This document shows, in pieces, positions 3,361 to 11,073 of a stretch of DNA of 22,861 bases. The translations under genes and the position numbers were made by a program. The stretch is from a virus. Under the pieces are notes generated by a model that was not told where the DNA came from, did not search any database, and saw only the letters and a program-made list of their open reading frames with translations. The first letter of the stretch is position 1. Every line of letters starts with the position of its first letter. Location: positions 1 to 22,861 of the IMG/VR virus record IMGVR_UViG_3300043446_001572; one strand, written 5' to 3'.

Positions 3361-3526
3361 CTTTATCCTCCGGGGCACTCATAAAAATAATTAGTTCTCG
3401 GCAAGCCCTTCTAACTCGCGGGTCATCTTCAACCTCTAGCAAGTCTTTAAGCCGCCAAACAATGTATTGGTCCATAACGTCTACAAACAAGCTCTCCTCT
3501 AAGAACTCCATTTTGTTGACACTCAT
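3353..3526 (-). CDS. Small acidic phage protein, unknown function
   Basis: 57 residues starting MSVNKMEFLEESLFVDVM and ending with an acidic PEDKDD tail. The ATG at 3526 has an AGGAGA site about 7 bases upstream and overlaps the stop of the previous gene as ATGA, so a TTG further upstream is rejected. It is predicted to be all helical. No motif is recognised. Its place in the chain of overlapping small genes before terL suggests the late packaging transcript, but its role is unknown. Confidence 0.7.
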   Translation of the reverse strand: MSVNKMEFLEESLFVDVMDQYIVWRLKDLLEVEDDPRVRRACRELIIFMSAPEDKDD

Positions 3527-4713: not shown

Positions 4714-4971
4714 ATGAAAAAAGCATACGTTAAGGCCTTCAACGAGTTAACCAAATTAGGCTGCCCAGTCTTTAATCGTTCCGACTATGTAGATGGTTTC
4801 TTTATCAGCGCAGAGGGCAGTAACAGCGATGAATGGGCTGATTACTACAACACATACCCTTGGCAATGGAACGGCGAAACAACTAACCCTAAAATTGACG
4901 AGGTATTGAAAAAATATAAGTTATTCGCTGAATGGAACAATCCAGGCTGTTTGCAAGTATTCGAGAACTAA
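4714..4971 (+). CDS. First early gene, small phage protein of unknown function
   Basis: 85 residues starting MKKAYVKAFNELTKLGCPVFNR. The middle is acidic and aromatic (SNSDEWADYYNTYPWQWNGE) and the overall character is that of a small soluble globular protein. The ATG follows GGGAG at a good distance and lies about 40 bp after a strong promoter start point. As the first early gene it may be a host-takeover or regulatory protein, but no motif supports that, and no family is recognised. Confidence 0.7.
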   Translation: MKKAYVKAFNELTKLGCPVFNRSDYVDGFFISAEGSNSDEWADYYNTYPWQWNGETTNPKIDEVLKKYKLFAEWNNPGCLQVFEN

Positions 4972-4982
4972 TCAAACCGCTA

Positions 4983-5004
4983 GCCGGAGCGTATCCGGCA
5001 TTTT
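4983..5004 (+). terminator. Intercistronic hairpin with short T tract
   Basis: GCCGGA (4983-4988) and TCCGGC (4994-4999) form a 6-bp stem with a 5-base loop, followed by ATTTT. It sits between the first and second early genes, 28 bp before the next start. The tract is short, so it may be a leaky terminator or an RNA-stabilising or processing stem. A similar hairpin with the same GTATC element and a CATTTT end lies at 9183-9206. Confidence 0.5.
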
Positions 5005-5026
5005 CCTAACATTTAAGGGGTACACC

Positions 5027-5344
5027 ATGCAAAACATATTTGACCAATTTCAAGGCGCAGACTTAGACCGACTCACAGACTGTTTGAAAGCTATCCGACA
5101 AGCCGGACTGTCTGTAGACAAATACACTCAGGCCGGAGTCAATCCTACCTCTGGCAATGTCTGGGTGTGGTCTGAGGACTGGTACGGCTCAGTCTATTGC
5201 TCTATCAGCTTTGACGTTCAATGGTGCTATTCGTGCCCAGAGTGCGGAGAGGAGCATGACTTCGACACTTACCAAGAATTAGAGAATTACGTCACAGAAC
5301 ATGATTACAACCATTGTGACTCTTGCCGGACTGTGGAGGCTTAA
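5027..5344 (+). CDS. Small zinc-ribbon-like early protein
   Basis: 105 residues. The C-terminal half carries two CxxC pairs, CPEC at about residues 71-74 and CDSC at about 97-100, spaced as in a zinc ribbon. The N-terminal half is helical, then aromatic (NVWVWSEDWYGSVYCS). The ATG follows AAGGGG with good spacing. A zinc-bound structural or nucleic-acid-binding role is inferred from the cysteines. It lies in the early operon after a leaky hairpin. The exact function is unknown. Confidence 0.75.
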   Translation: MQNIFDQFQGADLDRLTDCLKAIRQAGLSVDKYTQAGVNPTSGNVWVWSEDWYGSVYCSISFDVQWCYSCPECGEEHDFDTYQELENYVTEHDYNHCDSCRTVEA

Positions 5345-5346
5345 CC

Positions 5347-5433
5347 ATGCCTGAATCATTCTTTGAATATGCTCTTGGCCTTATCGGCTTTGCTCTGTTT
5401 TATCTGTTTTTCTTTGTTTTGCTTTCTTTCTAA
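5347..5433 (+). CDS. Tiny single-span membrane peptide
   Basis: A 28-codon frame encoding MPESFFEYALGLIGFALFYL and a further hydrophobic stretch ending LSF. After a short acidic head nearly the whole peptide is hydrophobic, so it would be a single membrane span. The ATG lies two bases after the stop of the zinc-ribbon gene, and the next ATG is 12 bp after its stop, so spacing supports translation by coupling. Its own ribosome binding site is weak. Candidate roles are an early membrane effector or lysis-timing peptide; nothing decides between them. Confidence 0.5.
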   Translation: MPESFFEYALGLIGFALFYLFFFVLLSF

Positions 5434-5444
5434 TCGGGGGTTTT

Positions 5445-5615
5445 ATGAGTTCACTATTACGTACCGCTTCATGGGTTATTGTTGACAAGATAACCAACAA
5501 AGCAATATTTGAGACTTTTAGCGAATCAATTGCAAGCAAGATAAATGTTGAAAAGTATCAAGCAGTGCCAGTGCTTGAATACCTGCAAAACCTAAACAAA
5601 CAGATAAGGGGCTAA
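5445..5615 (+). CDS. Small conserved phage protein, unknown function
   Basis: 56 residues starting MSSLLRTASWVIVDKITNKAI. The pattern W-V-I-V-D-x-x-T-N-x-x-I-F-E-T-F followed by KINVEKYQAVPVLEYLQNLN resembles a small protein found in early regions of many phages, known to me only as hypothetical. The ATG follows a GGGGG stretch with short spacing. Length, charge and codon use fit the neighbours. The stop lies 2 bp before the next ATG. The function is unknown. Confidence 0.7.
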   Translation: MSSLLRTASWVIVDKITNKAIFETFSESIASKINVEKYQAVPVLEYLQNLNKQIRG

Positions 5616-5617
5616 TC

Positions 5618-5863
5618 ATGGGTAAAGTTAAACAATCATTAATAGTTGAGCGAGAGAACATAGACCTTGATTACAGGCCTTTTAAGCCCGTCGAAAGGTT
5701 ATCTGATGTCGAGGTATCAGCGGCCTATTTAAAGCCCGCTACAGGCCTTCTAGAGGGTCGAGAATGGACGCCTAGTAGTCAAACTGACGTAACAAAGACT
5801 TGGCGTAGGTTTGGTTGGCGTCCTATTGCTGAAATCAAAGCAGAGCAAGAGGGGCAATCATGA
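5618..5863 (+). CDS. Small early phage protein, unknown function
   Basis: 81 residues starting MGKVKQSLIVERENIDLDYR, with a charged C-terminus (EIKAEQEGQS). AAGGGG lies about 8 bases before the ATG. The stop overlaps the next gene's start as ATGA. A predicted strand-rich core with WTPSSQTDV and TWRRFGWRP is visible, but no family is recognised. Confidence 0.65.
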   Translation: MGKVKQSLIVERENIDLDYRPFKPVERLSDVEVSAAYLKPATGLLEGREWTPSSQTDVTKTWRRFGWRPIAEIKAEQEGQS

Positions 5864-6033
5864 GCGAAAGATTCTTAATTATTGTTACCAGCGCAATTAT
5901 TTTGTGTTTATTTGTTTATGGTTTTGATTTTAAAAATAATGTTTTAGAACAAATTGCGCTACTGGTTTCTGGCTATTTATTCGGAAACCTGACAACAATC
6001 GCTGACTACGCAAAGGATGATAATGCTTGCTAG
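5860..6033 (+). CDS. Small two-span membrane protein
   Basis: 57 residues starting MSERFLIIVTSAIILCLFVYG. Two hydrophobic segments, at about residues 5-22 and 31-44, are joined by a short polar loop with Asp and Lys, and the tail is acidic (ADYAKDDNAC). The start overlaps the previous stop (ATGA), and the ribosome binding site AGAGGGG lies in the preceding coding sequence. The two-span layout recalls small holin-like proteins, but the gene is in the early block, far from the endolysin, so an early membrane role is equally likely. Confidence 0.6.
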   Translation: MSERFLIIVTSAIILCLFVYGFDFKNNVLEQIALLVSGYLFGNLTTIADYAKDDNAC

Positions 6034-6136
6034 TTTATTCACAATCTTAGTCGGGGGGATATTTATGGGCATGGGAGTTATGCTTTTGACAGTCGTTGCA
6101 TGGATTCTTTGGACTTTTTTAACGCCAGAGGATTGA
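6023..6136 (+). CDS. Tiny single-span membrane peptide
   Basis: 37 residues starting MLASLFTILVGGIFMGMGVM, then a Trp-rich stretch and a short TPED tail. The peptide is almost entirely hydrophobic. The ATG at 6023 overlaps the end of the preceding gene by 11 bp and has an AAAGGAT site about 6 bases upstream. It is the third tiny membrane protein in this block. The candidate promoter of the C4-like RNA overlaps its stop codon. Confidence 0.55.
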   Translation: MLASLFTILVGGIFMGMGVMLLTVVAWILWTFLTPED

Positions 6137-6162
6137 CAAAATCCCCCACGCGCATGTAGATT
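6133..6162 (+). promoter_or_regulatory. Candidate promoter for the C4-like RNA
   Basis: A perfect TTGACA (6133-6138) overlaps the stop of the preceding gene. TAGATT (6157-6162), four of six matches to the -10 consensus, follows after 18 bp. Initiation would fall near 6169, almost exactly at the first hairpin of the structured RNA. The -10 match is imperfect, so the RNA may instead be processed from the longer early transcript. Confidence 0.45.
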
Positions 6163-6166
6163 CGCC

Positions 6167-6267
6167 TTGTTGTCGTGGAAAACAACAAATCTGAGGCCGT
6201 TTGAATCTGTTCCTTGCCCCGCCGATATAGGGGTTTCCACCAAGGAGCAGTTTCAAGCGGCTTTTTT
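6167..6267 (+). ncRNA. C4/CI-like antisense immunity RNA with terminator
   Basis: Two hairpins are visible. The first is TTGTTGT/ACAACAA (6167-6173 and 6182-6188) with an 8-base loop. The second is long: GCCGTTTGAA pairs with TTCAAGCGGC (6196-6205 and 6252-6261, one T-G pair), then CTG/CAG and TCCTTG/CAAGGA continue the stem, and CCCC/GGGG (6217-6220 and 6230-6233) closes the apical loop, leaving TTTCCAC (6234-6240) unpaired. Six T residues follow at 6262-6267, so the hairpin doubles as a terminator. The CCCCGCC loop, unpaired TTTCCACC and GCGGC-T6 end resemble, from memory, the C4 antisense RNA of phages P1/P7 and the CI RNA of P4, which base-pair with target sites in their own transcript. 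Family identity needs a covariance-model search. Confidence 0.7.
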
Positions 6268-6406
6268 GTTGCCCATGATGACCGTACTGGTCGCGTTAGC
6301 AATGGGCTTGAATGGGCTGCTACCAAGAAAACACCGCATACCGGAGACACCCACGGTGTGTGACAGAACTTGGTTAGGGTATCTGTAAAGTCTATGGCAG
6401 GTGGCA

Positions 6407-6526
6407 ATGACAAGACATAGACATAAGCCAACTAACCCGTCACGCGCACTTGGTACTGGTTTTGTAGCCTTAAATCAGTATGGAGAGGAGGCCGGTATAG
6501 GCCACCCTTGGCAGGTTATCGACTAA
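6407..6526 (+). CDS. Short ORF downstream of the C4-like RNA, possible target gene
   Basis: 39 codons starting MTRHRHKPTNPSRALGTGFV and ending HPWQVID. The head is strongly basic and the tail mildly acidic. AGGTGG lies just before the ATG and could serve as a ribosome binding site, though the spacing is short. That same site, GGTGGCAA at 6400-6407, is complementary at seven of eight positions to the unpaired TTTCCACC of the C4-like RNA. In P1 and P7, C4 represses translation of a small ORF (icd) in this manner. The protein itself is not recognised, so coding is possible rather than certain. Confidence 0.4.
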   Translation: MTRHRHKPTNPSRALGTGFVALNQYGEEAGIGHPWQVID

Positions 6527-6549
6527 AGAAAGTGAGGTGAAAAAAGATA

Positions 6550-6578
6550 TTGAACATAATGGAATTAACCTATATAGT
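6550..6578 (+). promoter_or_regulatory. Promoter for the recombination operon
   Basis: TTGAAC (6550-6555) and TATAGT (6573-6578) are separated by 17 bp, giving four of six and five of six consensus matches. Initiation would fall near 6585, with about 30 bases of leader containing TTCCTAAC and an AAAGGGG ribosome binding site before the ATG at 6615. It would let the second early block be expressed independently of termination at the C4-like RNA. Confidence 0.55.
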
Positions 6579-6614
6579 CCTACTGTATTTCCTAACCATC
6601 TAAAGGGGTAAATC

Positions 6615-6857
6615 ATGAGTGAACCAAAGCTCTGCATCGACTGTAAGCACTTCAAAGCACGTTCCTGCTATCACCCATCCAACGGCATCGATTTAGTCGA
6701 AGGAAAAATCCAGTCTGAATTCTGCGCGATTATGCGTTTAGATTATCGCGAGTGTAAGCCTGAAGGACTTCTATTTGAACCGATGGAGGCCGTTGTATAT
6801 GACATTGCAGCACTTTTTCCAGACACCAATTTTCCTAACATCAGAGGTGAAAAATGA
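6615..6857 (+). CDS. Small Cys-rich protein, possible zinc binding
   Basis: 80 residues starting MSEPKLCIDCKHFKARSCYH. The N-terminus has CxxCKHF followed by further Cys and His (CYHP), with Cys at about 42 (FCAIMR) and 52 (ECKPEG). This spacing is that of a small metal-binding domain seen in phage early proteins. A strong AAAGGGG site precedes the ATG. It is the first gene of the recombination operon and its stop overlaps the next start. The function is unknown. Confidence 0.75.
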   Translation: MSEPKLCIDCKHFKARSCYHPSNGIDLVEGKIQSEFCAIMRLDYRECKPEGLLFEPMEAVVYDIAALFPDTNFPNIRGEK

Positions 6858-7045
6858 GCATCCAAACAGAAGGTCTGAAAGGACTAGAAACAATAAGCAT
6901 AAACGACCTACTTAGGCCGTTTGAAAAAGACTACGAAAAAGCTCAAATGCGTGACCAGATTGAAATGCTGGAGCGTGAAATAGACCGTCAATCAACCATC
7001 ATTGACGCACTAATCAAAGCAATCAAAGTTATTGAGAGGGGTTAA
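6854..7045 (+). CDS. Small coiled-coil protein
   Basis: 63 residues starting MSIQTEGLKGLETISINDLL. Residues about 25-60 (KDYEKAQMRDQIEMLEREID and onward) form a clear heptad-patterned coiled coil. The start overlaps the upstream stop (ATGA), with AGAGGTG as ribosome binding site, and the stop lies 2 bp before the exonuclease start. The tight coupling suggests it works with, or is needed in amounts similar to, the recombination proteins, but no family is recognised. Confidence 0.7.
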   Translation: MSIQTEGLKGLETISINDLLRPFEKDYEKAQMRDQIEMLEREIDRQSTIIDALIKAIKVIERG

Positions 7046-7047
7046 TC

Positions 7048-7950
7048 ATGGCAAATGACCAGAACGATTTCGCACCAGAAGTTCGCAATTCGGCTTGGTG
7101 GTCGGGTGACTCTAGGAAAGCAGCCAACGGCAGAGGTAATGAAGCTGTCCTAGAGAAATTAGGCTTGAAAGAACGGCCAGACTTATCTCAAGTGGAAGCT
7201 GTCCAAATGGGTCACGTTATGCAGCCCATCATCGGACGTTTAGCTCAAGATAAATTGCAGATTGAATTGAAGGACGCTGATTATGCGCTTACGCATCCAA
7301 AAGAAACGTGGCTCAAATCACATTTCGATTTTATCTCTGCTGACGGTAAAACGCTGGTTGAAGCGAAGAATTACAACGCGAATGTTCGTAATAAGTTTGA
7401 CGCAGAATCAAACATTATCCCTGCGGCTGATATGGCGCAGCTCGTACATGAAGCGGCTTGCCATAACGTCGAAAATATTGTTTTGGCGGTCTTGTTTGGC
7501 GGTCAAAATTTTGAGACGTTTGAATTTACAATTTCGGAAGCCCAAAAGGAAAGTCTCATTAAGGATATGGCGAGGTTTTGGGCAGCAGTTCAAACTAAGC
7601 AACCACTTGAGCCAGAGACAACAGAACAGACAAAACTTGTTTACGCTCAAGACAAAGGCACAAGCATCGTCGCAATCCAACCCATTGAAAAGGCAGCAGA
7701 AGCTCTCAAGTTCGTTAAAGAAGAAATTAAGCGGCTAGAGGAAAAGGAAGAACATCTCTTAACTGCTATTCAAAACCACATGCAATGGTCGAGCGAACTG
7801 GTGAGCTTCGATGGCAAAGTTCTCGCTACATGGAAAAACTCTAAGGGCAGCAAACGATTCGACGCTAAGTTATTCCAAGCCCAACACCCCGACATCTACG
7901 AAAAGTTTGTCACGGAAACGGCAGGTTCTCGCCGCTTCTTACTTAAATAA
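7048..7950 (+). CDS. YqaJ-family viral exonuclease (PD-(D/E)XK)
   Basis: 300 residues. The N-terminal two-thirds match the lambda-exonuclease/YqaJ fold: an early WW-S-G-D-S-R-K-A segment, QMGHVMQP (about 53-60), the metal-binding HFDF (Asp94) and VEAKNY (Glu105, Lys107) of the PD-(D/E)XK core, and the conserved QLVHEA (about 131-136). The C-terminal third adds a Glu/Lys-rich helix (KFVKEEIKRLEEKEEH) and a conserved-looking NSKGSKRFD segment. Such enzymes chew 5' strands of double-stranded ends and hand single strands to an annealing protein; the RecT-like gene lies three genes downstream. Start ATG has an AGGGG site. Assignment is firm. Confidence 0.9.
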   Translation: MANDQNDFAPEVRNSAWWSGDSRKAANGRGNEAVLEKLGLKERPDLSQVEAVQMGHVMQPIIGRLAQDKLQIELKDADYALTHPKETWLKSHFDFISADGKTLVEAKNYNANVRNKFDAESNIIPAADMAQLVHEAACHNVENIVLAVLFGGQNFETFEFTISEAQKESLIKDMARFWAAVQTKQPLEPETTEQTKLVYAQDKGTSIVAIQPIEKAAEALKFVKEEIKRLEEKEEHLLTAIQNHMQWSSELVSFDGKVLATWKNSKGSKRFDAKLFQAQHPDIYEKFVTETAGSRRFLLK

Positions 7951-7960
7951 TGGAGGATTT

Positions 7961-8152
7961 ATGTACGCATTTCCTAGTGGACACAATCCAAAAACAGGTA
8001 CGCAAGAATCTGGCATGACCTTGCGTGATTACTTTGCAGCTAAAGCTATGCAAGCGATTTTGAGCAATCCAGACTACACCAACGAAGACCATGTATTAGC
8101 TTCTTCGTCTTATAACGTGGCTGACGCAATGATGAAAGCGAGGGATTTATGA
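7961..8152 (+). CDS. Small conserved phage protein (MTLRDYFAAKAMQ motif)
   Basis: 63 residues starting MYAFPSGHNPKTGTQESGMT. The segment GMTLRDYFAAKAMQAIL at about 18-34, followed by a patch ending in ASSSYNVADAMMKARDL, is a pattern seen in many small phage and prophage proteins of unknown function. GGAGG lies at ideal distance before the ATG at 7961, so the longer in-frame reading that overlaps the exonuclease is rejected. The stop overlaps the next start (ATGA). Confidence 0.8.
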   Translation: MYAFPSGHNPKTGTQESGMTLRDYFAAKAMQAILSNPDYTNEDHVLASSSYNVADAMMKARDL

Positions 8153-8361
8153 CAGTATTTGTTCCGCTTGTGACTGAAAAAAGAATAGTAGAAATTATTC
8201 GTGGTTATATTGCAGAACACGCTACTGAAACTACTCATCCTGATATGAACAATGAAAATCATTTATTGAAATTATCAGAACTAATGGTTGATGAGTGTGT
8301 TGCAAGAATTCCATTGTTTAGATTAGAAAAAGACGCTGTTGAGAAAGCGAGGAAACCATGA
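8149..8361 (+). CDS. Small early phage protein, unknown function
   Basis: 70 residues starting MTVFVPLVTEKRIVEIIRGY, predicted helical, with several His/Glu/Asp residues mid-chain (HATETTHPDMNNENH). Both ends overlap neighbours by 4 bp, so it is translationally coupled between the preceding small gene and the annealing protein. No family is recognised. Confidence 0.7.
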   Translation: MTVFVPLVTEKRIVEIIRGYIAEHATETTHPDMNNENHLLKLSELMVDECVARIPLFRLEKDAVEKARKP

Positions 8362-9167
8362 CTGCCTTAGTGCCAATAAATGAAATAAGAGAAATGGCTG
8401 AAGTCGCAGCCAAGAGCAAGATGTTTGGCTTTAAGTCTCCAGACGAAGCAATGGCTATCATGTTGCTTTGCCAAGCTGAGAACCTGCATCCTGCTATTGC
8501 TATGCGTGACTATCATGTCATCCAGAATCGCCCTGCTTTGAAGGCGGATAGTATCCTCGCCCGCTTCCAGCAGAACGGAGGTTCAGTCAAATGGGAGGAA
8601 TACACTGATGAGCGAGTCACTGGTACTTTTTCTCACCCCGCTGGTGGGTCTGTTGCTATCACTTGGACATTTGAGATGGCAAAGAGAATCGGACTTACGT
8701 CTAAGGATAACTGGCGGAACTACCCACGCGCCATGCTCCGCTCAAGATGCATCAGCGAGGGTGTCAGAACCGTATTTCCCGGAGTTGTTGCGGGAGTCTA
8801 CACAGACGAAGAAACGGAGTCTTTCTCTGCAAAGAGCCAGCCTTATCAAGCGCAGACAAAAGATATGGGCGAAGCGGAAATCGTTATTGAGGAACAGGTA
8901 ACCGAGTATCAATTATTTTTGCCTGACGGTTCTGTCTACGCTAATTGCACGAACTGGCAAGACTACATTGAGCGTTATGTATCCATGTTGGACGCTATCG
9001 AGAATTCGCCGAAGCTAAAGAAAGAAGAAAAGGCAGAAAAGCGAAAAACTTGGGAGGCGGGGAACGCTGACGCAATTAAGCGCATGGACGCAGTGACCAA
9101 GACACAATTTATAGCGGCTAAACAAGGTGTAGATACCTTTGCAGACTTGGAGGACGCTATTGAGTAA
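8358..9167 (+). CDS. RecT-like single-strand annealing protein
   Basis: 269 residues. The core GFKSPDEAMAIMLLCQAENLHP, AMRDYHVIQNRPALKADSIL, RFQQNGGSVKWEEY and NYPRAMLRSRCISEGVRTVFPGVV with VAGVYTDEE follows the pattern of phage RecT/Bet-like annealing proteins, in which the segment after the Ala-Leu-Lys-Ala-Asp motif builds the beta-sheet core. The C-terminal 100 residues are a charged, less conserved tail. The family anneals complementary single strands; here the YqaJ exonuclease in the same operon would make the substrate. Start overlaps the previous stop by 4 bp. Fold-level assignment rests on recalled patterns. Confidence 0.8.
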   Translation: MTALVPINEIREMAEVAAKSKMFGFKSPDEAMAIMLLCQAENLHPAIAMRDYHVIQNRPALKADSILARFQQNGGSVKWEEYTDERVTGTFSHPAGGSVAITWTFEMAKRIGLTSKDNWRNYPRAMLRSRCISEGVRTVFPGVVAGVYTDEETESFSAKSQPYQAQTKDMGEAEIVIEEQVTEYQLFLPDGSVYANCTNWQDYIERYVSMLDAIENSPKLKKEEKAEKRKTWEAGNADAIKRMDAVTKTQFIAAKQGVDTFADLEDAIE

Positions 9168-9182
9168 TTTCAGGCATGGACA

Positions 9183-9206
9183 GCCCCAAAGTATCGGGGC
9201 ATTTTT
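9183..9206 (+). terminator. Intercistronic hairpin with T tract
   Basis: GCCCC (9183-9187) and GGGGC (9196-9200) form a 5-bp stem with an 8-base loop, followed by ATTTTTA. It lies between the annealing protein and the SSB-like gene, 23 bp before the next start. The stem is short, so partial termination or RNA processing is more likely than a full stop. It shares the GTATC element and CATTTT end with the hairpin at 4983-5004. Confidence 0.5.
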
Positions 9207-9228
9207 ACCCAAAATTAAGGAACCCATT

Positions 9229-9510
9229 ATGAGTGAAGCAAGAGAGTACACAAAGTTTATTCCCCAAGAACTAAAGGGGCGTATCACGCACAATAAATAC
9301 AAACAAAAGGATACAGAGCCAGACATGAAAGGCACATTGTGCGTCAAAGGCATGATTGTGAATTTCGGTATTTGGAAGAATGATGGTCCCCACGGTGAAT
9401 ACTTCAACATTAAGGTATCTGACCCTGACTGGAAGGATAAGCAGAAGGACGCTCAGTATCCGAAAGAGGTAACGCCTAAATCTAAGATGGCTGGCGATAT
9501 TCCTTGGTGA
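9229..9510 (+). CDS. Small SSB-like protein with DIPW tail
   Basis: 93 residues starting MSEAREYTKFIPQELKGRIT. The body is small, Lys-rich and predicted beta-rich (TLCVKGMIVNFGIWKNDGPH, EYFNIKVSDPDWKD), and the chain ends GDIPW, close to the DDIPF-type tip by which bacterial single-strand binding proteins recruit partners. With exonuclease, annealing protein and RusA beside it, a single-strand DNA binding or accessory role is likely. The ATG at 9229 follows TTAAGG. The body does not look like a canonical OB-fold SSB at first sight, so identity is inferred from the tail and context. Confidence 0.6.
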   Translation: MSEAREYTKFIPQELKGRITHNKYKQKDTEPDMKGTLCVKGMIVNFGIWKNDGPHGEYFNIKVSDPDWKDKQKDAQYPKEVTPKSKMAGDIPW

Positions 9511-9893
9511 TGCACGCATGGCTTGAGTTGCCGTTCCCGCCTAGTCTTAACACCTACTGGCGTAACTTTCGAGGGAGAACTGTTCTATCAAAAAATGGAC
9601 GGCAATTCAAGAATGACGTTCAGGACTACATCATAGAAAAGAACATTCCTAAATTTGGGGACAAGAAGTTGAAGATAACAATGATTTTGCGCCCTAGAGA
9701 TAAAAGGAAAATTGACATCGATAACCGGATTAAAGCGGTGCTAGATTCGCTTCAAGACGCAGGGGTTTTCGATGATGATTTTCAGGTAGACCACATTGAG
9801 ATGATTCGCGGAGAACAAATCAAGGGTGGCCTTATACGGGTTTTGATTGAAGAACTACCAGACCCCCGTCAGACCGAGGGCGAGTCCCTCTGA
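9510..9893 (+). CDS. rusA: RusA-family Holliday junction resolvase
   Basis: 127 residues from the ATG at 9510, which overlaps the preceding stop (TGATG). The N-terminus LPFPPSLNTYWR and the core KIDIDNRIKAVLDSLQDAGV then FDDDFQVDHI match RusA, whose catalytic aspartates lie in the DxDN motif (Asp69 and Asp71 here) and in the later acidic cluster (Asp88-90). RusA dimers cut Holliday junctions during phage recombination and packaging-substrate maturation. Two in-frame codons upstream (TTG, GTG) are alternative starts. Length is normal for the family. Assignment is firm. Confidence 0.9.
   Translation: MHAWLELPFPPSLNTYWRNFRGRTVLSKNGRQFKNDVQDYIIEKNIPKFGDKKLKITMILRPRDKRKIDIDNRIKAVLDSLQDAGVFDDDFQVDHIEMIRGEQIKGGLIRVLIEELPDPRQTEGESL
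9876..9890 (+). other. GAGGG/CCCTC stem-loop at the end of rusA
   Basis: A 5-bp stem (9876-9880 and 9886-9890) with a CGAGT loop overlaps the last codons of the resolvase gene. No T tract follows, so it is not an intrinsic terminator; it could block decay or ribosomes between rusA and the next gene, which starts 65 bp downstream. Confidence 0.25.
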
Positions 9894-9957
9894 GGACAGG
9901 TTAGGAACGCTTGGGCAACGTCTCGGTCAGCCCACTAATTCAACTAAAGGGGATTAC

Positions 9958-10698
9958 ATGAATAAGCATCTATTTGTCGCAACACCTCAATATGGCGGTC
10001 TGTGCTATGGCTTTTATGCTCAGTCTTGCTTGCAGCTTCAAATGCTGTGCAAGAACGCTAATATAAATATTAGCTTTTCTTTCTTGTTTAATGAGTCTTT
10101 GATTCAGAGAGCCAGAAACTTGTTGACGCATCATTTCTTAAAATCTGATGCAACACACATGATGTTTATTGATGCCGACATACGGTTCAATCCAAACGAC
10201 ATCTTTCCGATGATGGAGGCTGACAAAGACATCATTTGTGGCATCTACCCAAAGAAAGAAATCAACTGGCAGACCGTCCGTAACGCGATTGAGGCCGGTG
10301 TACCCAATGAGCAGCTAAAACACCATACAGGGGCGTTTGTGGTCAATCTGGTGGACTATCAGACTGAGGTCACAGTGCCGGTCAACCAGCCAGTAGAGAT
10401 TTGGAATGGTGGAACTGGATTCATGCTGATTAAGCGTGAGGTTTTCGAGGGTTTAATTGGGAAAGTGCCGATGTACCTAAATAACGTGTTGGATTTGCAG
10501 AGCAACCAGAACGGCGAAACCATTCATGAGTTCTTTGCAACGCAGATTGAGCCAGAGTCGCAATTGCTTCTGTCTGAAGATTATGACTTCTGCAAAAAGG
10601 CTAGAAACAACGGATATAAGGTATGGGCAGCACCTTGGGTGCAATTAGCCCACGTTGGCACCTACGCATTTGAAGGTCAGTTGCTGCAAACGCCATGA
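9958..10698 (+). CDS. Glycosyltransferase-like protein (GT-A fold)
   Basis: 246 residues starting MNKHLFVATPQYGGLCYGFY. The chain follows a GT-A pattern: an N-terminal strand and glycine loop, ESLIQRARNLLTHHFL (about 46-61), the metal-binding MFIDADI with DAD at about 72-74, and later GGTGFMLI and SEDYDFCKKARNNGYKVWAA, which corresponds to the acceptor-side acidic motif. Phages use such enzymes on DNA bases, virion proteins or host surface polymers; the target here is unknown. The ATG at 9958 with AAAGGGG upstream is chosen over a longer frame that overlaps rusA. The stop overlaps the next start by 4 bp. Confidence 0.8.
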   Translation: MNKHLFVATPQYGGLCYGFYAQSCLQLQMLCKNANINISFSFLFNESLIQRARNLLTHHFLKSDATHMMFIDADIRFNPNDIFPMMEADKDIICGIYPKKEINWQTVRNAIEAGVPNEQLKHHTGAFVVNLVDYQTEVTVPVNQPVEIWNGGTGFMLIKREVFEGLIGKVPMYLNNVLDLQSNQNGETIHEFFATQIEPESQLLLSEDYDFCKKARNNGYKVWAAPWVQLAHVGTYAFEGQLLQTP

Positions 10699-11048
10699 TG
10701 CGCGATAAGTACGCTCCCCATGTTGATTTTGGGGAGTTGTCCGGCTTGCTTGGCAAGGTTTTGCCGTCAAATCTGGATATGGTCCTAGAACGCAAGGGAC
10801 ACTTCCTGTTCGGCGAATGGAAGCGAGACGGGGAAAAGATAAGCAAAGGCCAAGAAATCCTCTTAAAAGCCCTCTCAGGGCTGCCGAAAACAACCGTTCT
10901 GGTTGTTTCTGGAGATACAGACAACGGGATGCGTGTAGAGCGTTTCTGGAGGATTTTGCCGGACGGCAGTTACGCTCAATCCGGCAAAGGTTTAATAGAG
11001 TTCAAAGACTATATTACTGAATGGTACCTAGTAGCTGATATAGGATAA
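10695..11048 (+). CDS. Possible PD-(D/E)XK nuclease, last early gene
   Basis: 117 residues starting MMRDKYAPHVDFGELSGLLG. The sequence SNLDMVLERKGHFLFGEWKR at about 26-45 has the spacing of a small PD-(D/E)XK core: Asp in a first strand, then E-x-K in the next (EWK). GQEILLKALSG and TTVLVVSGDTDN follow as in resolvase or VRR-NUC type folds. It is short for most such families, so it may be a compact single-domain nuclease or an inactive relative. Two adjacent ATG codons (10695, 10698) are possible starts. A terminator follows at once. Confidence 0.65.
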   Translation: MMRDKYAPHVDFGELSGLLGKVLPSNLDMVLERKGHFLFGEWKRDGEKISKGQEILLKALSGLPKTTVLVVSGDTDNGMRVERFWRILPDGSYAQSGKGLIEFKDYITEWYLVADIG

Positions 11049-11073
11049 TGTTGCAGCGCAACATACAGTTTTT
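11048..11073 (+). terminator. Intrinsic terminator ending the early operon
   Basis: ATGTTGC (11048-11054) and GCAACAT (11058-11064) form a perfect 7-bp stem with an AGC loop, followed by ACAG and five T residues (11069-11073). It begins at the stop of the last early gene and lies in the 43-bp gap between convergent units. On the opposite strand no T run follows the stem, so it serves the plus strand only; no comparable terminator for the leftward late RNA is seen here. Confidence 0.7.

Follow-up and report, generated by a model that had tools for sequence, protein, structure and literature searches.

Paired control RNAs with diversified recognition loops are known from ColE1, where RNA I is antisense to RNA II. 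In the Salmonella prophage Gifsy-1, IsrK is made both as a short, intrinsically terminated RNA and as a read-through RNA that contains it; the former acts on the latter in trans, and the gene lies ahead of the antirepressor gene anrP (PMC4825925). CI of P4 is a processed antisense RNA that acts on sites either side of CI (PMC4825925). The putRNA of HK022, a two-hairpin RNA downstream of an early phage promoter, suppresses termination in cis (PMC9378689). Pseudoknots are not mentioned in a 2025 review of phage sRNAs (PMC12197685).

The locus described here was predicted in the window, the whole stretch of 22,861 nt that was analysed, a 22.9-kb linear fragment; the lack of a visible repressor or integrase stated in the first-pass annotation applies to this fragment and not to the phage as a whole. 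It encodes a putative small RNA, RNA1, followed by a second structured region, RNA2 (Table 1). Judged by analogy, IsrK is the closest functional precedent, and in the best model the locus would work like IsrK or P4 CI, to which it is unrelated in sequence. Both IsrK and RNA1 are short terminated RNAs, the latter as read from the hairpin and T-run in the sequence alone; the read-through form and the trans action were shown for IsrK and are predicted for RNA1. IsrK differs in being followed by anrP, whereas structured noncoding RNA2 and recombination genes come after RNA1. The C4 RNA of phages P1 and P7 (RF01695) and P4 CI resemble RNA1 as short hairpin RNAs of the early region with a proposed role in early control and with type-specific recognition words, but RNA1 has its own promoter, terminator and internal pseudoknot, and neither a match to RF01695 nor leader sites were found for it. 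Like RNA1, putRNA is a two-hairpin RNA past an early promoter, but it is not itself a terminator, whereas RNA1 ends at one. RNA1 and RNA2 would form a pair of control RNAs as in ColE1, however arranged in tandem on one strand. The family Betaproteobacteria-1 (RF02932) corresponds to one exchangeable type of RNA2 and not to RNA1; the RNA2 of the window is of another type.

Table 1. Features of the RNA1-RNA2 locus in the window
Feature	Position	Strand	Remarks
Small ORF, 37 aa, hydrophobic, membrane-type	6023..6136	+	just upstream of RNA1; overlaps the -35 box
Sigma70-type promoter of RNA1, TTGACA (6133-6138), 18 nt, TAGATT (6157-6162)	6133..6162	+	predicted start ~6169
RNA1, predicted small RNA of ~99 nt	6169..6267	+	covariance-model match 6167-6267
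P1 hairpin, 5 conserved bp	6169..6186	+	at the predicted 5' end
Pseudoknot 5' strand GTGGAAA	6175..6181	+	P1 loop; covariation with 6234-6240
P2/P3 terminator hairpin	6193..6264	+	arms 6193-6216 and 6241-6264; apical P3 6217-6220/6230-6233
Pseudoknot 3' strand TTTCCAC	6234..6240	+	3' bulge between P3 and P2; covariation
T-run of the intrinsic terminator, six T	6262..6267	+	
RNA2 type 1, conserved structured noncoding region	6281..6515	+	~13 nt past the T-run; 3' boundary approximate; without Rfam match
Second promoter-like site, TTGAAC-17-TATAGT	6550..6578	+	ahead of the early recombination operon; conserved in relatives
First operon gene, 80 aa	6615..6857	+	no assigned function

Structure and distribution of RNA1

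The fold of the predicted RNA has a free energy of -44.8 kcal/mol compared to a mean of -23.6 kcal/mol for shuffled sequences (z = -6.7); none of 200 shuffles was as stable. The first-pass annotation had described two hairpins, an unpaired TTTCCAC and six T, and all of these lie where it had placed them. The full P1 stem has 7 bp (TTGTTGT 6167-6173 with ACAACAA 6182-6188), the conserved part being 6169-6173/6182-6186. In the long hairpin, a helix of 13 bp (6193-6205/6252-6264) is separated by a 1x1 mismatch from one of 10 bp (6207-6216/6241-6250), and a third of 4 bp (6217-6220/6230-6233) follows. TTTCCAC is indeed unpaired in the nested fold, but it did not hold up as a free antisense word: it is the exact complement of the P1 loop and, judged by covariation, pairs with it in cis. 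This complementarity, the promoter of RNA1 and the second conserved structured RNA in the next ~250 nt had escaped the first-pass annotation. Open reading frames across 6167-6388 were rejected as a coding region, being chance frames that run through the hairpins, and a tRNA or tmRNA identity of the locus was rejected as well.

When 29 sequences were aligned with MAFFT, the structure including the pseudoknot comprised 30 pairs, with 97.8 % of the cells paired and two-sided changes in 20 pairs; the controls gave 0 of 500 shuffles, and slid structures were 36-53 % paired. Two-sided changes occurred in five of the seven pairs of the pseudoknot helix alone. Among relatives found through RecT, the words of loop and bulge change together: GUGGAAA/UUUCCAC, GUGAAGGU/ACCUUCAC, GUGAUGGU/ACCAUCAC, UGUAGCGGCA/UGCCGCUACA, UGUGUGCGCA/UGCGCACACA, GUCAGAC/GUCUGAC and others. 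Because this first set had partly been chosen by a descriptor requiring loop/bulge complementarity, a second set was built without pseudoknot information; its contigs were fetched by one P2 strand only or by the RNA2 pattern only, and scored with a model lacking the pseudoknot. RNA1 was present in 99 of 99 contigs, and 96 of these 99 homologues had retained a T-run of at least six. There were 70 distinct hits, among them 7 weak artefacts on the opposite strand; 61 of the 70 had a loop/bulge complementarity of at least 7 nt, compared to ~12 % after random re-pairing of loops and bulges. Over both sets, more than 30 different word pairs occur. Among the paired regions, variability is highest in the pseudoknot core, with a column diversity of 0.54 versus 0.24-0.39 for P1 and P2; in RNA1 of type C, four core pairs vary next to invariant columns. 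Covariation, which the first-pass annotation had named as a check, was found in the 29-sequence alignment and again in the second set; it supports P1, P2 and the loop-to-bulge pseudoknot as predicted here, and the structure of RNA1 as a two-hairpin, pseudoknotted small RNA with a terminator is well supported. The annotated view of a real structured RNA of ~100 nt with its own terminator, heading early recombination genes, was borne out. A possible natural mutant is a type C RNA1 (L018 39-145) with a broken 3' word of the pseudoknot, TGCCGCATACA in place of the full complement of TGTGACGGCA.

The viral contigs fetched that carry RNA1 number ~140, and they include contigs whose RecT is only ~53 % identical. 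The 18-nt P2 word GAAGCCGTTTACWCATGC retrieved at least 120 IMG/VR stretches, compared to an estimated chance expectation of ~3 for a collection of ~45 billion bases; the matches to the pattern GGTTTCCACCAAGGA were mostly due to chance. The model match in the window scored 90.6 bits, the window being among the 29 sequences used to build the model. A match of 82 bits was obtained in the circular 41.8-kb phage MW202484 from Manatee Spring, its own copy being likewise part of the model alignment. MW202753 has a divergent RNA of the same architecture, as read by eye, with the loop CTGATAAC and the bulge GTTATCAG. All homologues are environmental records. Compared to the 4227 families of Rfam 15, RNA1 gave no match at the curated threshold; weak matches to CRISPR-DR47 (E 1.7) and a group II intron (E 0.67) were rejected, their scores lying under the curated ones. 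No RNA1 was found in 399 Burkholderiales genomes, a prophage search that is uninformative because it lacked a positive control and a known host. From its sequence RNA1 is to be seen as a member of a phage RNA family unlisted in Rfam 15, which may be published under another name. In L271 (33533-34157) and L187 (1672-2103), the RNA1/RNA2 locus is covered by the hypothetical proteins UOF77725, UOF77726 and UOF81610, which seem to be artefacts of annotation. Pieces resembling a tRNA T-arm (GGTTCGAATCCAGAC, GGGTTCGATTCCCG) were seen within the locus in L319 (minus strand, between RNA1 at 3488 and RNA2 at ~3294) and L342 (5740-5900); ARAGORN called no tRNA at these pieces.

RNA2 and the gene surroundings

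RNA2 usually starts ~10-25 nt past the T-run of RNA1 and comes in at least five exchangeable types. Two-sided changes were found in 16 of the 36 predicted pairs of type 1, the type of the window, and in 20 of 34 for type 2. Type 3 is Betaproteobacteria-1, with 87-97 bits in phages; types 4 and 5, like additional variants, were recognised by eye. Motifs placed 103 of 146 loci in types 1-5, and most of the 42 classed as other were further variants by inspection. All contigs fetched solely by the type-1 pattern have RNA1 upstream. The position of RNA2 downstream of RNA1 holds in the type-1 set and, by motif or by reading, in most other loci; L362 and L058 are among a few exceptions with no evident RNA2 directly past RNA1. 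The partners are exchanged: the RNA1 types A, B and C pair with differing RNA2 types, and the RNA2 region of L009 is 99.7 % identical to that of the window, yet lies behind a different RNA1 type.

As an RNA2 module of phages, RF02932 was located at L012 2751-2866, L016 2600-2717 and L247 3362-3479; in the window it gave no match at E<=10. Its occurrence in Burkholderiales chromosomes is patchy, with 5 of 300 genomes over the cut-off and up to 3 matches in one. The chromosomal copies inspected have no RNA1 ahead, thus type-3 RNA2 can exist without RNA1. One copy (L184) lies beside TnsAB-like and hsdM genes. No paper naming the Betaproteobacteria-1 RNA was found in the literature searched. Phages with a type-5 RNA2 carry one or two DnaA boxes (TTATCCACA) ~185 nt past the RNA1 terminator (L212 4192-4212, L243 4344-4364, L054 3133-3141).

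The -10 box of the RNA1 promoter ends 6 nt upstream of the conserved P1, and across the loci this spacing is mostly 6-7 nt. A promoter of at least 9/12 was present upstream of RNA1 in 37 of 87 distinct loci, compared to 5 of 87 shuffled windows. The promoter position predicts a primary, unprocessed 5' end, with transcription starting at the foot of P1. Between the T-run of RNA1 and RNA2, a promoter of at least 9/12 was found in 0 of 64 loci; RNA2, with no recognisable promoter of its own, should therefore be made by transcription that reads through the RNA1 terminator. The small hydrophobic ORF upstream is conserved in relatives; there, as in the window, the -35 box of the RNA1 promoter shares bases with the stop codon of this ORF. 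The early operon behind RNA1 and RNA2 encodes a RecE-like exonuclease, RecT, an SSB-like protein and RusA. In its leader (6585-6614) most close relatives share a conserved TTTCCTAAC...AAAGGGGTAA ahead of the start codon. Due to the second promoter past RNA2 in the window and close relatives, the operon need not depend on read-through.

A predicted switch and its alternatives

We propose a terminator-gated two-RNA switch of early control, with a specificity element in the P1 loop and feedback in trans, as a tentative model of the function that has somewhat less than an even chance of holding. The host RNA polymerase would start at P1, and the majority of transcripts would end at the T-run, yielding a compact, end-protected RNA1 of ~99 nt. 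The remaining transcripts would read through into RNA2 and, in many phages, into the leader of the early recombination operon. Specificity would reside in the P1 loop together with its complement: in a transcript of its own phage type, whether nascent or read through, free RNA1 may recognise the same words and so shift the balance of stop and read-through, resulting in dosage feedback or in a type-specific exclusion of a second infecting genome. The model is based on two facts: the pseudoknot core retains its pairing although no other paired region varies as much, and the coupling of RNA1 with RNA2 persists even though phages exchange both. Both favour, as far as sequence comparison goes, a regulatory, type-specific element over a plain terminator; the fast, compensated change of the pseudoknot could, however, also stem from neutral drift if the helix has a structural role only. 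Trans action, read-through and the target of RNA2 are what we infer; exact complementarity revealed no trans target outside RNA1 in 10 records. Since the nested terminator and the pseudoknot are mutually compatible, a classical antiterminator was not identified. RNA-based control of early expression, as suggested by the first-pass annotation, remains the best reading of the putative function. In its widest form, the locus would represent a widespread, undescribed RNA-only class of phage immunity or incompatibility systems: the short pseudoknotted RNA, with the hypervariable loop/bulge words as its code of self-recognition, would gate read-through into an interchangeable RNA2 that drives early expression or replication; we consider this unlikely.

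It is distinctly unlikely that RNA1 regulates nothing and is only a strong, pseudoknot-stabilised terminator that stops upstream transcription or insulates the RNA2 region. The very stable hairpin and the conserved T-run suit such a terminator. However, a covarying loop-to-bulge pseudoknot, a promoter starting exactly at P1 and a strict coupling with RNA2 are not expected from it.

A replication control, with RNA2 as primer precursor or origin transcript in the manner of ColE1 RNA II and RNA1 as copy-number regulator, receives little probability. Among the ORFs scanned, helicase, primase, polymerase and initiator were recognised neither in the early genes of the window (4714-11050) nor in the complete circular 34-kb relative MW202825, where none is annotated either (L272 1-34188). 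In view of this and the DnaA boxes after type-5 RNA2, a replication role keeps its small share. The pseudoknot words also diversify like incompatibility determinants. The DnaA boxes past RNA2 were seen only with type 5, however, the RF02932 form had no plasmid match, and RF02932 also occurs in chromosomes. The minima of the GC skew, at a distance of 1-3.5 kb, follow the orientation of the genes, and an origin position from GC skew was rejected for this reason.

The chance is slim that RNA1 acts in trans on host targets, i.e., a host mRNA, the RNA polymerase or an RNA-binding protein. Its compact, protected fold and the conserved sequence at the P2 base and at the 3' side of the P2 2x2 internal loop would fit this role, but a conserved unpaired seed is missing and the exposed words, besides being hypervariable, are taken up by pairing in cis. 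Quite improbable is also a single functional RNA of ~350 nt with RNA1 and RNA2 as domains and an incidental T-run. The strict order and close adjacency would agree with one RNA, as would the divergent MW202753 that shows only TTTTCTC at the place of the T-run; the conservation of the T-run, the free shuffling of RNA1 and RNA2 types and the chromosomal RF02932 copies without RNA1 argue against it.

The first-pass annotation had placed RNA1 with the antisense immunity RNAs C4 and CI. As such an RNA, RNA1 would pair through TTTCCAC and the loops with the phage's own leader or an antirepressor mRNA; this is very improbable and already strongly weakened, in spite of a similar size, two hairpins, short unpaired words and the early-region position. 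A search with RF01695 (gathering score 45 bits) at E<=1 over 13 records, the window and 12 relatives, gave no match, nor did 5900-6600 at E<=10. The word proposed as antisense is engaged in cis pairing. RNA1 comes with a promoter and a terminator of its own; CI, in contrast, is described as a processing product of a primary leader transcript (PMC4825925). Membership is unsupported because the defining complementary sites, in the leader or near the RBS of a target transcript, were sought and not found as exact complementarity: a search for exact, ungapped pairing revealed no complement of RNA1 longer than 12 nt or at a shared position in 10 records, eight relatives of ~35 kb and MW202484 included.

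A structured RNA of well over a hundred environmental phage contigs, with distantly related recombination modules, is thus missing from Rfam 15. The orphan family Betaproteobacteria-1 is now linked to a phage control locus, which would be the first functional context for that RNA. By swaps of the 7-10 nt loop/bulge pair, RNA1, possibly a novel type of RNA switch acting on early genes of phages, offers a compact system for testing an RNA self-recognition code.
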